NCBI RefSeq assembly: GCF_900129495.1
Contig: NZ_FQVX01000003.1
Location: 558,001-622,000 of the forward strand
Reading direction: 5' to 3'
Length of the DNA: 64,000 bases
Source of the DNA: Geodermatophilus nigrescens
GTDB taxonomy: Bacteria; Actinomycetota; Actinomycetes; Mycobacteriales; Geodermatophilaceae
Shown: positions 25,962 through 30,310 of the stretch, piece by piece
Position numbering within the stretch: position 1 is the first letter of the stretch
How the letters are laid out: every line of letters starts with the position of its first letter
Made by a program: the position numbers and the translations under genes
Notes under the pieces: model-generated
What the model was told of the DNA's origin: nothing
The model's database searches: none
The model's input: only the letters and a program-made list of their open reading frames with translations

Positions 25962-26876
25962 CTATGCGGGGGCCGCACCGGCCCCCAGTCCGGACAGCTT
26001 GTCGGGGTTGAGCACCACGAGGACCTGCTGCACGAGCCCGTCGGCGACGCCCAGCGACACCGCCACGAACGGCCCGGCGTCGGTCCACGCCGCCACGCCG
26101 GGCAGGCCGTTGACGTCGGCCAGCTCCATCCGCAGCCCGGGCAGCGCCGCCCCGCCGGAGGCGACCGCGGCCAGGAAGCGGGCCACCTTGTCCGCGCCGG
26201 TGATCGGCCGCAGCGCCGCCTTGGACCGCCCGCCGCCGTCGGTGACCAGCACGGCGCCGGGGGCGAGGGCCGCCAGCAGCGCGCCGACGTCGCCCCCGAG
26301 GCACGCGGCGAGGAAGCGCTCGGTCACCTCGCGGTGGGCGCGGCGGTCGGCGTCGAACCGGGGTCGTCGGGCCTCGACGTGCTCGCGTGCCCGGTGGGCG
26401 AGCTGCCGGACGGCGGCCTCCGAGCGACCGAGCGCCGCGCCCACCTCGGCCGCCGGCAGGCCGAACACCTCGCGGAGCACGAAGACGGCCCGCTCGGCGG
26501 GGGAGAGCGTCTCCAGGACGACGAGCAGCGCCAGCGACACCTGCTCGCCGAGCGCCACCTCGTCGGCCGGGTCGGGCGCCGTGGCGGACCCCGTGGAGGG
26601 AAGCGCCCCGCCGGTGAGCAGCGGCTCGGGCAGCCACGGGCCGACGTAGGTCTCGCGGCGGGCCCGGGCGGAGGTCAGCCGGTCGAGCGCCAGGCGGGTC
26701 GTCGTCCGCACCAGCCAGGCGCGCGGGTCGGCGACGTCGCCCCGGTCGGCCGCCGACCAGCGCAGCCAGGCGTCCTGCACGGTGTCCTCGGCGTCGGCGA
26801 CGCTGCCCAGCATCTGGTAGGCGACGCCGAACAGCAGCCGCCGGGCGGCGTCGAACGGCGGCAGCGGGTCGGTCAC
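25962..26876 (-). CDS. ECF41-type RNA polymerase sigma factor (SigJ-like)
   Basis: A 304-residue ECF sigma factor with regions 2 and 4 (residues ~10-165) fused to a SnoaL-like C-terminal domain. The three ECF41 signature motifs are all present: WLPEPL (81-86), DGGGR (213-217) and NPDKL (290-294). In this group the fused tail acts as a built-in regulator instead of an anti-sigma factor. The GTG overlaps the CMD gene stop by 4 bases. ECF41 genes are typically next to a carboxymuconolactone decarboxylase-like or oxidoreductase gene, as here. A matching promoter lies at 27475-27501. Confidence 0.94.
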   Translation of the reverse strand: MTDPLPPFDAARRLLFGVAYQMLGSVADAEDTVQDAWLRWSAADRGDVADPRAWLVRTTTRLALDRLTSARARRETYVGPWLPEPLLTGGALPSTGSATAPDPADEVALGEQVSLALLVVLETLSPAERAVFVLREVFGLPAAEVGAALGRSEAAVRQLAHRAREHVEARRPRFDADRRAHREVTERFLAACLGGDVGALLAALAPGAVLVTDGGGRSKAALRPITGADKVARFLAAVASGGAALPGLRMELADVNGLPGVAAWTDAGPFVAVSLGVADGLVQQVLVVLNPDKLSGLGAGAAPA

Positions 26877-27442
26877 GTCCCGGCCGGGACGTCGCAGCGG
26901 TCGCGGAAGCCCTGGCTGTGCAGCCCCATCGCGGCGTTGAACCGCGACCGGCTGTTCTCCACGGCGACCATCATCGTCAGCTCGACCAGCGCCGCCTCGC
27001 CCAGCTCGCGCCGCAGCGCCTCCACCATCCCGTCGGTGACGCCGGGCGGCGTGGTGCTCATCGCCTCGGCGTACTCGACGACCCGCCGTTCGCGGTCGGT
27101 GAGCGCGTCGCTCGTGCGCCACGAGGGCACGGCGCGCACCTTGGCCGGGTCGACGCCGTCCTGCGGGCTCACCCAGTACCCGAAGTCCACGCACCACGAG
27201 CAGCCGATGGTGACCGCCGACGACATGACGGCCAGCGCCTTGAGCGTCGGGTCGAGCCGGTCCCACCGGGCGAGGGCCTGCTCGTGCCGCAGCTCGGTGA
27301 GCAGCAGGCGCGGGTGGTGGCCCATCGCGGCGGCGGGCTGCAGGCGCGCGCCGTACCGGCGGCGCGAGTACAGGTCCACGACGCGGGTGAGCAGCGTGCG
27401 CGGCGGGTCGAGCGGGATGCGGGCGGTGCGGGTCCCGGTCAC
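26873..27442 (-). CDS. carboxymuconolactone decarboxylase (CMD/AhpD-like) family protein
   Basis: A 189-residue CMD-fold protein. VTIGCSWCVDFGYW carries the redox pair Cys81-Cys84, and VENSRSRFNAAMGLHSQGF closes the domain. The C-x-x-C pair suggests AhpD-like peroxidase or disulfide chemistry rather than decarboxylation. GTG 27442 is preferred over an ATG at 27466 because AGAGGA precedes it and the predicted ECF41 promoter would start transcription at about the ATG. It is the presumed direct target of the coupled sigma factor. Confidence 0.88.
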   Translation of the reverse strand: MTGTRTARIPLDPPRTLLTRVVDLYSRRRYGARLQPAAAMGHHPRLLLTELRHEQALARWDRLDPTLKALAVMSSAVTIGCSWCVDFGYWVSPQDGVDPAKVRAVPSWRTSDALTDRERRVVEYAEAMSTTPPGVTDGMVEALRRELGEAALVELTMMVAVENSRSRFNAAMGLHSQGFRDRCDVPAGT

Positions 27443-27474
27443 GGCGGCGTCCTCTCGTCGGGGCATGCCCTCCG

Positions 27475-27501
27475 GACGACGCAGCCGGCCGATCCGTGAC
27501 A
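27475..27501 (-). promoter_or_regulatory. predicted ECF41 target promoter
   Basis: On the minus strand TGTCACG (-35), exactly 16 bases, then CGTC (-10). The consensus recalled for ECF41 promoters is TGTCACA-N16-CGTC, so one base differs. It lies between the chorismate mutase stop and the CMD start and would drive CMD, sigma factor and PIG-L genes. Confidence 0.78.
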
Positions 27502-27507
27502 CCGGCG

Positions 27508-27771
27508 CTAGAGGCGGCCGCGCCCCTGGCGGAGCAGCATCATCCCGAGCGCGGCGCCGTCGGCACCCAGGGCGTCCTGGAAGCGGGCGATGACCTGCTG
27601 CTCGCGGGCGAGCGAGAGCCGGGTGCCGCCGGAGTCCCGGCGCAGCTGCCCGATCTCCTGCGACACGGCGAGGCGGCGCTGCACGAGCCGGATCAGCTCG
27701 GCGTCGCAGGCGTCGATCTCCCCGCGCAGCTCGGCGATGCGCTCGTCGGCGGGGGTGCTGGTGGCGTTCAT
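27508..27771 (-). CDS. chorismate mutase (AroQ type)
   Basis: An 87-residue all-helical chorismate mutase. ELRGEIDACDAELIRLVQRR is the first active-site helix with conserved Arg, Asp and Leu spacing, followed by SQEIGQLRR and a third helix. It converts chorismate to prephenate for Phe and Tyr synthesis. The ATG has an AGGAG site. It is divergent from pcrA/uvrD, an arrangement shared with mycobacteria (Rv0948c/uvrD1). Upstream on the same strand lie a short Phe-Tyr-Tyr leader ORF and a terminator hairpin, suggesting attenuation. Confidence 0.9.
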   Translation of the reverse strand: MNATSTPADERIAELRGEIDACDAELIRLVQRRLAVSQEIGQLRRDSGGTRLSLAREQQVIARFQDALGADGAALGMMLLRQGRGRL

Positions 27772-27818
27772 CTCGGTCTCCTGGCGGGGCGGGAGCCTCC
27801 GGGCCCAGGAACGAGAGA

Positions 27819-27845
27819 CGCCCCGGGCTCCTCGGGCCCGGGGCG
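27819..27845 (-). terminator. attenuator hairpin upstream of chorismate mutase
   Basis: On the minus strand CGCCCCGGGC pairs with GCCCGGGGCG around a 7-base loop and is followed by TCTCTCGTTCCT. It lies between the leader ORF stop (27863) and the chorismate mutase ATG (27771), the expected place for a transcription attenuator. Confidence 0.7.
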
Positions 27846-27862
27846 TTCGTCGCGGCGGCTGC

Positions 27863-27928
27863 TCAGCCAGCGGCTACGGACACCGGAACCCGGTGCCCGT
27901 AGTAAAAGCTGACGGTGGCGAGCAGCAC
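27863..27928 (-). CDS. putative aromatic leader peptide of chorismate mutase
   Basis: A 21-codon ORF from GTG 27928 to TGA encodes V-L-L-A-T-V-S-F-Y-Y-G-H-R then VPVSVAAG. The run TTT-TAC-TAC (Phe-Tyr-Tyr) matches the end products of the pathway, and TTT is rare in this GC-rich sequence. Bases 27874-27902 can fold as CTACGGGCACCGG/CCGGTGTCCGTAG with one mismatch, covering the codons after YY. A terminator follows. No clear ribosome site precedes the GTG, so leaderless translation is possible. The peptide itself is inferred. Confidence 0.6.
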   Translation of the reverse strand: MLLATVSFYYGHRVPVSVAAG

Positions 27929-28003
27929 GTCGTCGAGTGTGACACACGCCGGTCCCCGTCCCCAGGGGGTCCGACGGCGGCCGGGACCGTCACCCGGTCG
28001 AAC

Positions 28004-28009
28004 TACAGT
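28004..28009 (+). promoter_or_regulatory. predicted -10 element of pcrA/uvrD (leaderless type)
   Basis: TACAGT lies 9 bases before the ATG, and no ribosome site is present. The divergent 27772-28018 region otherwise holds the leader ORF and attenuator of the opposite gene. Confidence 0.45.
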
Positions 28010-28018
28010 GGTGTGGCT

Positions 28019-30310
28019 ATGAGCAGCGTGCAGCAGGCCCTCCCCGGAACCGCCGCGCTCCAGCGTTCCGCTCCCGGCTCGGCCGGCCGGGAACTGGACC
28101 GCATGCTGGCCGGACTCAACGGTCCCCAGCGCCAGGCCGTCGTCCACGAGGGCGGCCCGCTGCTCATCGTGGCCGGCGCCGGGTCGGGCAAGACCCGCGT
28201 GCTGGCCCACCGCATCGCCTACCTCCTCGGCGCGCGCGGCGTGCAGCCCGGCGAGGTCCTGGCGATCACGTTCACCAACAAGGCCGCCGGTGAGATGAAG
28301 GAGCGGGTGGCCCAGCTCGTCGGGCCGCGCGCCCGCGCCATGTGGGTGTCCACGTTCCACTCGATGTGCGTGCGCATCCTGCGCGCCGAGGCGGCCAAGC
28401 TCGGCCTCAAGTCGTCGTTCACGATCTACGACCAGGGCGACTCGGTCCGGCTCATGACGATGGTCGCGCGCGACCTCGACCTCGACGCCAAGCGCTACCC
28501 CGGCCGCAGCCTCACCGCCCAGGTGTCGAACCTGAAGAACGAGCTCGTCGACGAGGAGTCGTTCGACCCCCAGACGGCGCCGGAGAAGGTGCTCAAGGAG
28601 GCCTACACGCTCTACCAGCGGCGGCTGCGCGAGGCGCACGCGCTGGACTTCGACGACCTGATCATGACGACGGTCAACCTGCTGCAGGCCTTCCCCGACG
28701 TCGCCGAGCACTACCGGCGCCGGTTCCGGCACGTCCTGGTCGACGAGTACCAGGACACCAACCACGCCCAGTACGTCCTGGTGCGCGAGCTGGTCGGCAC
28801 GGGGGAGGGGCCGGTCCCGCCCGGCGAGCTGTGCGTCGTCGGTGACGCCGACCAGTCGATCTACGCCTTCCGCGGCGCCACGATCCGCAACATCGACGAG
28901 TTCGAGCGCGACTACCCGCAGGCCACCACGATCCTGCTGGAGCAGAACTACCGCTCCACGCAGCGCATCCTCAAGGCCGCGAACACCGTCATCGCGAAGA
29001 ACACCGGCCGCCGTCCCAAGAACCTGTGGACCGACGCCGGTGACGGCGAGCTGATCGAGGGCTACGTCGCCGAGAACGAGCACGACGAGGCCGCCTGGGT
29101 CGCCGAGCAGATCGACGCGCTGGTCGACGAGGGGAAGGCCCGGCCCGCCGACATCGCCGTCTTCTACCGGACCAACAACGCCTCCCGGGTGTTCGAGGAG
29201 GTGTTCATCCGCGTCGGCATGCCCTACAAGGTCGTCGGCGGGGTGCGCTTCTACGAGCGCAAGGAGGTCCGCGACGCGCTGGCCTACCTGAAGGTGGTCG
29301 CCAACCCGGCCGACGTCGTCAGCCTGCGCCGCGTGATCAACACGCCCAAGCGCGGCATCGGTGACAAGGCGGAGTCCTGCGTCGAGCAGTTCGCCGACCG
29401 GGAGCGGATCGCGTTCGCGACGGCGCTGCGCCGGTGCGGGGAGATCACCACCCTGGCGCCGCGCTCGCTCAAGGCGCTGCAGGAGTTCGTGACGCTGCTG
29501 GAGGAGTTCGAGCAGCTCGTGGAGACCGGCTCCGGGCCGGCCGCGCTGCTGGAGAGCATCCTCGACCGCACCGGCTACCTCGCCGAGCTCGAGGCCAGCA
29601 CCGACCCGCAGGACGAGGGCCGCGTCGACAACCTCAACGAGCTCATCTCGGTGGCCGCCGAGTTCGAGGCCACCAACCCCGGCGGCACGGTCACCGACTT
29701 CCTCGAGCAGGTCTCGCTCGTGGCCGACGCCGACCAGGTGCCCGTCACCGGCGACGAGGCCGGCGTCGTCACGCTCATGACGCTGCACACCGCCAAGGGG
29801 CTGGAGTTCCCGGTCGTCTTCCTCACCGCGCTGGAGGACGGCGTCTTCCCGCACCTGCGCGCGCTCGGCGACCCCAAGGAGCTGGAGGAGGAGCGCCGGC
29901 TGGCCTACGTGGGCATCACGCGGGCGCAGCAGCGGCTGTTCCTCTCCCGCGCCACGGTGCGCACGAGCTGGGGCCAGCCGGCCTACAACCCGCCGTCGCG
30001 CTTCCTCGACGAGCTGCCGGGCGACACCGTCCACTGGGCGCGCACCGACCCGACGCCGGCGCCGAGCACCGGGTCCGCGCAGCAGCGGGTGGCGGCCACG
30101 GGCCTGTCCACCGGCGGCCTGCGCGGCGGTCGCGGCAACCGGGCGGTGATCTCCGTCGAGGTCGGCGACCGGGTCAGCCACGACGCGTTCGGCCTGGGCA
30201 CCGTCGTCGAGGTCAACGGAGTGGGGGAGAAGGCGCAGGCCACGGTCGACTTCGGCTCCGGCGGCACCAAGCGCCTCGTCCTGCGCTACGCCCCGCTCGT
30301 CAAGCTCTAG
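28019..30310 (+). CDS. pcrA: ATP-dependent DNA helicase PcrA/UvrD (UvrD1)
   Basis: A 763-residue superfamily 1A helicase for DNA repair and replication. Motifs in order: Q-motif LNGPQRQAV, Walker A GAGSGKTR, Ia ITFTNKAAGEM, II VDEYQDTN, III GDADQSIYAFRGA, IV QNYRST, V TLHTAKGLEF, VI VGITRAQQRLFLSR. The C-terminal ~60 residues (GDRVSHDAFGLGTVVEV and on) form the Tudor-like fold that binds RNA polymerase in PcrA. The mycobacterial counterpart UvrD1 interacts with Ku. It lies divergent from chorismate mutase, as in Rv0949. Confidence 0.97.
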   Translation: MSSVQQALPGTAALQRSAPGSAGRELDRMLAGLNGPQRQAVVHEGGPLLIVAGAGSGKTRVLAHRIAYLLGARGVQPGEVLAITFTNKAAGEMKERVAQLVGPRARAMWVSTFHSMCVRILRAEAAKLGLKSSFTIYDQGDSVRLMTMVARDLDLDAKRYPGRSLTAQVSNLKNELVDEESFDPQTAPEKVLKEAYTLYQRRLREAHALDFDDLIMTTVNLLQAFPDVAEHYRRRFRHVLVDEYQDTNHAQYVLVRELVGTGEGPVPPGELCVVGDADQSIYAFRGATIRNIDEFERDYPQATTILLEQNYRSTQRILKAANTVIAKNTGRRPKNLWTDAGDGELIEGYVAENEHDEAAWVAEQIDALVDEGKARPADIAVFYRTNNASRVFEEVFIRVGMPYKVVGGVRFYERKEVRDALAYLKVVANPADVVSLRRVINTPKRGIGDKAESCVEQFADRERIAFATALRRCGEITTLAPRSLKALQEFVTLLEEFEQLVETGSGPAALLESILDRTGYLAELEASTDPQDEGRVDNLNELISVAAEFEATNPGGTVTDFLEQVSLVADADQVPVTGDEAGVVTLMTLHTAKGLEFPVVFLTALEDGVFPHLRALGDPKELEEERRLAYVGITRAQQRLFLSRATVRTSWGQPAYNPPSRFLDELPGDTVHWARTDPTPAPSTGSAQQRVAATGLSTGGLRGGRGNRAVISVEVGDRVSHDAFGLGTVVEVNGVGEKAQATVDFGSGGTKRLVLRYAPLVKL

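Follow-up and report, generated by a model that had tools for sequence, protein, structure and literature searches.

The region ahead of the chorismate mutase gene (aroQ) of Geodermatophilus nigrescens raises the question of whether a short open reading frame (ORF) and the hairpins that accompany it control aroQ in response to the supply of phenylalanine and tyrosine. In the window, by which we mean the whole 64,000-nucleotide stretch of DNA that was analyzed, the aroQ product matched Pfam CM_2 at 1.2e-11 and NCBIfam NF005894 above its cutoff, and its nearest solved structure was Rv0948c (PDB 2qbv, E = 1.5e-17). On the minus strand, a CACACT box is followed after 7 nt by a GTG-initiated ORF, a GC-rich hairpin, a tail, an AGGAG sequence, and the aroQ ATG. 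A PcrA/UvrD-type helicase gene (PcrA above the NCBIfam cutoff) runs divergently from position 28019 on the plus strand, which means that no upstream gene has the hairpin as its terminator. Downstream of aroQ, a carboxymuconolactone-decarboxylase-family gene adjoins a minus-strand gene (approximately 25962 to 26873) for a sigma-70-type regulator with regions 2 and 4 and a SnoaL-like match under its cutoff; this looks like an ECF sigma gene pair. The features of the aroQ region are as follows.

27508 to 27771, minus strand: aroQ, chorismate mutase, 87 amino acids, ATG at 27771 (Pfam CM_2, NCBIfam NF005894, PDB 2qbv)
27778 to 27782, minus strand: Shine-Dalgarno (SD) sequence AGGAG of aroQ (from sequence)
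27810 to 27817, minus strand: U-rich tail CTCTCGTT, weak in Geodermatophilus nigrescens (from sequence; absent from terminator scan calls)
27818 to 27846, minus strand: terminator hairpin 3:4, ACGCCCCGGGC-CCGAGGA-GCCCGGGGCGT (from the MFE fold and covariation)
27833 to 27850, minus strand: segment 3, predicted antiterminator partner (from covariation and partner-swap tests)
27863 to 27928, minus strand: predicted leader ORF, 21 codons, GTG...TGA, MLLATVSFYYGHRVPVSVAAG (from sequence; kept in relatives)
27875 to 27886, minus strand: segment 2, 3' arm of the in-ORF hairpin (CCGGTGTCCGTA, encoding PVSV), with the loop the predicted antiterminator strand (from pair counts)
27890 to 27901, minus strand: segment 1, 5' arm of the in-ORF hairpin (TACGGGCACCGG, encoding YGHR) (from pair counts)
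27899 to 27907, minus strand: sensor codons TTT TAC TAC (Phe-Tyr-Tyr), the middle codon variable among relatives (from sequence and comparison)
27936 to 27941, minus strand: -10-like box CACACT, 7 nt ahead of the leader GTG (from sequence; predicted leaderless start)

The 21-codon minus-strand ORF with TTT-TAC-TAC that the initial annotation had placed upstream of aroQ is present, with its GTG at 27928 and its TGA ending at 27863. At 52 of the 53 loci from named records, CAnACT lies 6 to 7 nt ahead of a leader start. The box played no part in picking the leaders, although where there were several possible starts, the box-bearing one was counted. The position of this box suggests that the transcript is leaderless and starts at the GTG. 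Several Streptomyces leader peptides are described as leaderless in the available part of an earlier report (PMC8079986).

We found aroQ by protein search in all 61 genomes analyzed (that of the window and 60 relatives), and because this set was picked via the AroQ protein, it was chosen independently of the leader. By reading, a short upstream ORF with Phe/Tyr codons was present in 60 of these 61 genomes, the exception being L046. A blind rule, which required a short ORF with a -10-like box 5 to 8 nt before its start and at least two aromatic codons within 8, found a leader with Phe/Tyr codons at 56 of 60 protein-chosen loci; L054, which was missed by tblastn and kept out of the rule survey, has a leader on reading. 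The leader was also present at all 53 aroQ loci from named records, nearly all of them Geodermatophilaceae (Geodermatophilus, Klenkia, Blastococcus, Modestobacter, and unclassified members of the family, with one record labeled Frankiales and one labeled Bacillus sp., both labels unverified). Nine of 86 genomes had no aroQ leader by the blind rule. At 30 control loci, those of type-II DAHP synthase, the rule matched five times, and four of these matches were similar VERYAEVEVFFG/VDRYAEVEVFFG peptides that we attribute to the end of the coding sequence before the locus; within the tested sets, certain picks (L279, L288, L123, and L303) look spurious as well. Since the leader, the hairpins, and the order of parts recur in relatives chosen by AroQ protein, the layout goes beyond chance. 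Some genera of family f8 (L046, L277, L279, L280, L282, and L283) are without a clear Phe/Tyr leader at aroQ, and these are apparent losses, since f8 relatives (g19) have the leader. At L060, we observed an unusual leader, VTGRAYPRFVFAYAYAFAGTGPVFAR, with many Phe/Tyr codons approximately 185 nt before the aroQ match.

As read from the aligned leaders, the peptide signature is F-x-Y-G-H/Y-R, in which the Phe is constant and usually encoded by TTT. Conservation of the leader Phe and Tyr codons across relatives, which had been proposed as a check, was therefore seen in the form of F-x-Y: of the Phe-Tyr-Tyr signal first described, the Phe and the last Tyr are conserved, but the middle Tyr is not. 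The motif takes the forms F-Y-Y, F-S-Y, F-P-Y, F-F-Y, F-L-Y, and F-A-Y. At the middle position, the 37 family rows carry Y, S, P, F, or L and most of the 55 order rows carry F, so that the FYY of the window is one case among several. The expression used to select rows required Phe, and the independent support for this residue comes from the protein-chosen and model-chosen loci. Base pairing accounts for part of the Tyr codon conservation, and in several relatives the signal is thin, with a single Phe and a single Tyr codon (F-S-Y or F-P-Y). The Phe codon was TTT in 36 of 37 family rows and in 50 of 55 order rows, for a total of 86 of 92, while TTT was used for none of the 50 Phe codons of six window genes and for none of the 292 counted in type-II DAHP synthase genes, mostly from Geodermatophilus (30 loci were given, and those passing length and stop filters were counted).

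The MFE fold of positions 27960 to 27769 (192 nt) has a z score of -3.85, with none of 200 shuffled sequences as stable. It holds both the hairpin that had been noted inside the 3' half of the leader ORF (27901 to 27875) and the terminator hairpin (27846 to 27818). The initial annotation had given this second hairpin a T-rich tail; the hairpin stands, but the tail CTCTCGTT is without a T run, and a rule-based scan called no terminator here because the window species lacks a clear T run. Across relatives, a run of at least three Ts occurs within 9 nt after the CGGGG of the stem in 71 of 92 rows, with 2 rows that could not be anchored. A search of positions 27300 to 28300 against Rfam gave no T-box or other match near a gathering score.

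If the stem is only terminator-like, the leader could instead act on translation, governing access to the aroQ SD sequence through a further hairpin after the stem. The window MFE fold pairs the SD sequence with bases right after the 3:4 stem (27817 to 27771), and at least four of its five bases were paired in 19 of 30 family rows, a count made without a control (34 rows were given, of which 4 were not parsed). However, the SD pairing differs among rows, with some folds cut short on the 5' side, and the 3:4 stem is better conserved than this pairing and is followed by the T runs counted above. We consider translational attenuation an unlikely account of the element as a whole. Pairing of the SD sequence after the terminator could possibly provide extra translational control.

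For transcription attenuation, the helices themselves are informative: the compensatory stem changes that had been proposed as a second check were found, and both the 3:4 and 1:2 stems covary. In alignment A1 (50 rows, without L044 and L053), 86.0% of cells were paired in hairpin 1:2 and 96.1% in the terminator. In the more divergent alignment A4 (55 rows, without L330, L339, L038, L044, L049, L051, L053, and most family rows), 90.6% of cells were paired in hairpin 1:2, compared to 29 to 49% in slid versions, and there were 53 double-changed cells, compared to 9.8 ± 2.6 in shuffles; the covariation score was reached by 0 of 500 shuffles, and the six pairs with changes on both sides by 9 of 500. 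The terminator 3:4 in A4 had 95.2% of cells paired, a covariation score reached by 0 of 500 shuffles, and 26 double-changed cells, compared to 10.8 ± 2.0 in shuffles, while its three double-changed pairs, reached by 60 of 500 shuffles, were not clearly above them. These shuffle controls overstate the independence of the counts, as the rows share ancestry.

Residues of the conserved half of the peptide, YGHRxPVSV, change as the base pairs change, with GHR..PVS becoming GRR..PAS in L031 and with GYR..PV and GNR..PAP also found among relatives, which indicates that this half is largely an RNA palindrome written in codons. The same observation bears on the idea that the element works by nascent-peptide arrest, as in TnaC, with the conserved peptide FxYGHRxPVSV stalling the ribosome itself. 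Such an idea draws on the strong conservation of the C-terminal half of the peptide within the family, but the conserved residues come after the sensor codons and vary with the pairing as a coded palindrome would. A TnaC-type peptide has conserved residues before its stall site, and the residues before F-x-Y vary. Peptide arrest is, in our estimate, extremely improbable.

An attenuator that acts on transcription also needs an antiterminator, which the initial annotation had left open. From the aligned sequences, we identified a predicted pairing of the loop and 3' arm of the in-ORF hairpin with the 5' arm of the terminator and the bases preceding it. In the window, 27850 to 27842 faces 27884 to 27876 with 8 of 9 pairs, and 27841 to 27833 faces 27891 to 27883 with 7 of 9; some rows have perfect nine-base pairing (GGACUCCGG with CCGGAGUCC). 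In A1, the pairing of 27884 to 27876 with 27850 to 27842 covered 79.3% of cells, compared to 31 to 49% when slid, and helix 2:3 had 3 double-changed pairs, reached by 53 of 500 shuffles and so not clearly above them. In A4, the adjoining helix (27891 to 27883 with 27841 to 27833 in the window) had 85.1% of cells paired, compared to 19 to 67% when slid. Helix 2:3 in A4 had 27 double-changed cells, compared to 12.9 ± 2.5, and a covariation score reached by 0 of 500 shuffles; its 4 double-changed pairs, reached by 317 of 500, were not above shuffles. Since related rows share ancestry, these antiterminator counts are strong and not independent.

Partner-swap tests also support this pairing. With fixed columns in the 55 A4 rows, the native mean duplex energy was -20.1 kcal/mol, whereas 500 partner swaps had a mean of -16.1 (standard deviation, 0.42; minimum, -17.2), none as low as native, and 200 shuffled duplexes had a mean of -13.5 kcal/mol. 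The native partner beat at least three quarters of foreign partners in 40 of the 55 rows, and in the other 15 at least one quarter of the foreign partners gave the better fit. This test repeated, with fixed alignment columns, one on 61 rows (native, -18.6; 300 swaps, -15.2; 100 shuffles, -13.8) in which an automatic choice of the terminator 5' arm extended, for several rows (e.g., L011, L037, L041, L055, L058, and L059), into the loop or 3' arm. Counting the rows with at least four pairs in a stalled nascent fold failed to set native partners apart, the tally being 16 of 18 order rows for native partners, compared to means of 14.5 for swapped and 12.6 for shuffled ones.

On the basis of sequence comparison, we conclude that the leader element before aroQ is very probably a ribosome-mediated transcription attenuator that senses charged Phe-tRNA and probably Tyr-tRNA. 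The layout of attenuation by Phe/Tyr tRNA charging that had been proposed for this locus is thus supported by its anatomy, by codon conservation, and by the covariation of three competing helices. A short ORF with codons for the end products lies upstream of a biosynthetic gene, and hairpin 1:2 overlaps the sensor codons and competes with antiterminator 2:3. Transcription would start at the GTG, and leader translation would begin without an SD site. The layout agrees with classical attenuation: by ribosome footprint reasoning, a ribosome stalled at the sensor codons would cover segment 1, and one at the stop codon would cover segment 2. When Phe-tRNA (or Tyr-tRNA) is charged, the ribosome would reach the TGA and cover segment 2, and the 3:4 terminator would fold. 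When Phe-tRNA or Tyr-tRNA is scarce, it would stall at TTT-x-TAC, abutting and overlapping segment 1 and so hiding it; segment 2 and the loop would then pair with segment 3, the terminator would be blocked, and RNA polymerase would enter aroQ.

The distribution of the element was surveyed with a covariance model, R1, which used 31 rows of 48 candidates (52 less L038, L044, L051, and L053). R1 scored at least 40 bits upstream of aroQ at 55 of 61 loci, including 24 of the 30 loci outside the model, and in the genome of the window the aroQ element was the sole strong match. The second full-length match in that genome (32.8 bits, L064) is a hairpin rich in GC that follows a different coding region, and weak matches are therefore taken as background. 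In an order-wide sample, 266 of 298 genomes had a match at an E value of 0.01 or better, which is an upper bound because background matches reach approximately 33 bits. All 40 fetched matches, picked for genus spread among the better-scoring matches listed, had a leader followed by a chorismate mutase gene. Matches at 1e-6 were present in 55 of 246 genomes of a class-wide sample. Among the 20 regions fetched from this sample (two from the window's own order), seven of family f33 had leaders such as MLTQTTFLFTYGNRPTGCHGRAA before chorismate mutase, six of family f31 had leaders such as MQRKFWRFYGYRPTGTVARRALR before type-I DAHP synthase (two of these enzymes were checked by NCBIfam), and one, L110, had neither leader nor chorismate mutase. 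The leader described at the Geodermatophilus aroQ is thus confirmed but is not specific to this genus, as relatives throughout the order and members of other families in the class also carry it.

DAHP synthase feeds Phe, Tyr, and Trp, whereas chorismate mutase feeds only Phe and Tyr. By the blind rule, leaders were present in 77 of 86 aroQ genomes and in 29 of 59 type-I DAHP synthase genomes, with no leader at the other 30 DAHP synthase loci. Trp occurred within 3 residues of Phe/Tyr in 21 of the 29 type-I DAHP synthase leaders, compared to 1 of the 77 aroQ leaders; counted by genus, the contrast was 17 of 22 to 1 of 39 (Fisher, 8e-10). The presence of Trp in DAHP synthase leaders and hardly ever in aroQ leaders is as codon sensing predicts. 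For example, G048 has MVRLTARFFYGSGHPAAVFVV at aroQ and MQQRFYFWYGYRPGSPRRLVALH at DAHP synthase, G040 is alike, and the same contrast is seen in G039 and G051, whose DAHP synthases are AroFGH-type. Outside this count, Trp was found near Phe in two aroQ leaders, those of G043 (VLSWQRRFFYGYR, four residues from Phe) and L349 (VQTTGRWFFYGYR), the latter being the only Trp-bearing aroQ leader among the 40 fetched model matches. L117 and L118, which have no anchor motif, were kept out of the DAHP synthase count; NCBIfam identifies both as DAHP synthases, and both leaders contain Trp. L128 to L146 were not entered either; these PF00793 loci, like the type-II (L161) and AroFGH-type (L139) DAHP synthases of the window's own genome, both named by NCBIfam, had no small upstream ORF in which three aromatic codons cluster.

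In many families of the class, short ORFs that look leaderless and contain codons for Trp, Phe, and Tyr, such as VTRWFGYFTGSGL and MRTAFWFWYGDGP, lie upstream of type-I DAHP synthase (L106, L109, L111 to L114, L121, L125, L234 to L237, L240, L247, L248, L250, L251, L255 to L258, L291, L292, L294, L296, L298, and L302). From their sequences, these ORFs are probably attenuators of the first pathway step.

The Trp contrast helps to weigh one more alternative, that aroQ has a conserved terminator close to its promoter, an upstream ORF that is constitutive or there by chance, and no amino-acid response. Regulation is a prediction here, and to that extent this reading has a case, but it does not account for the conservation of the Phe/Tyr codons, the otherwise unseen TTT, the difference from the DAHP synthase leaders, or the coadapted antiterminator, and we regard it as very unlikely.

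Leader-peptide attenuation, the mechanism that we favor for aroQ, is of a kind already well known. Neshat et al. (2014) is reportedly the source study of the Corynebacterium glutamicum aroR leader of aroF. In the available parts of PMC4046766 and PMC11802643, this leader (Phe-Tyr-Phe) precedes aroF, and in the latter readthrough rises under Phe limitation, with Tyr availability having no effect. Like the aroQ leader, aroR is an actinobacterial Phe/Tyr leader peptide before an aromatic-pathway gene, but it controls DAHP synthase, so the aroQ leader, which sits before chorismate mutase, is not classed as an aroR-aroF attenuator, and the parts of these sources available describe no family-wide RNA structure for aroR-aroF. 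Among the leaders described here, those of type-I DAHP synthase may be relatives of aroR. The pheL-pheA attenuator of Escherichia coli is named in the available part of PMC11802643. Like the aroQ leader, it places a Phe leader peptide ahead of a gene whose product has chorismate mutase activity, and it has competing hairpins. It differs in its many Phe codons and SD-led start, and the pheA product is a proteobacterial chorismate mutase-prephenate dehydratase fusion, unlike AroQ. The comparison is one of layout.

Streptomyces lividans attenuator peptides, like the aroQ leader, are short ORFs, several of them leaderless, with hairpins. In the available part of an RNA-seq reannotation of this species (PMC8079986), eight leader peptides, including leuL, trpL, ilvL, alaL, metL, and thrL, precede genes for amino-acid biosynthesis, tRNA charging, or import, and none is for Phe, Tyr, or chorismate mutase; the word "chorismate" is absent from the text. 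The mycobacterial ilvB1 attenuator resembles the aroQ leader in having an upstream ORF with sensor codons, a terminator, and an antiterminator, but it senses branched-chain amino acids and precedes another gene, according to the part of PMC13236596 available. In the part available, a 2005 survey saw no conserved RNA structure associated with actinobacterial Phe/Tyr operons (PMC1262725), and the available parts of PMC13236596, PMC4833913, PMC2965389, and PMC1173090 contain nothing on the chorismate mutase gene in actinobacteria. At the level of titles and abstract openings, we found no report of an attenuator on an actinobacterial chorismate mutase, and an earlier report is possible.

The aroQ element provides a concrete, testable regulator for the Phe/Tyr branch point in a large actinobacterial group. 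AroQ of this type binds type-II DAHP synthase and is activated by it, so a switch that sets how much AroQ is made could influence flow into the pathway as a whole. The aroQ and DAHP synthase leaders form a natural experiment on codon sensing, with a similar layout and codons that match the products fed, and the rare TTT at the sensor position provides an easy way to ask whether the sensitivity of an attenuator is set by its choice of codon. More broadly, we lean toward the view that Actinobacteria have widespread leaderless aromatic-amino-acid attenuators with sensor codons tuned to place in the pathway (Phe/Tyr at chorismate mutase and Trp/Phe/Tyr at DAHP synthase), and that the UUU of the aroQ sensor, unseen in the other genes sampled, would make aroQ hypersensitive to Phe-tRNA.
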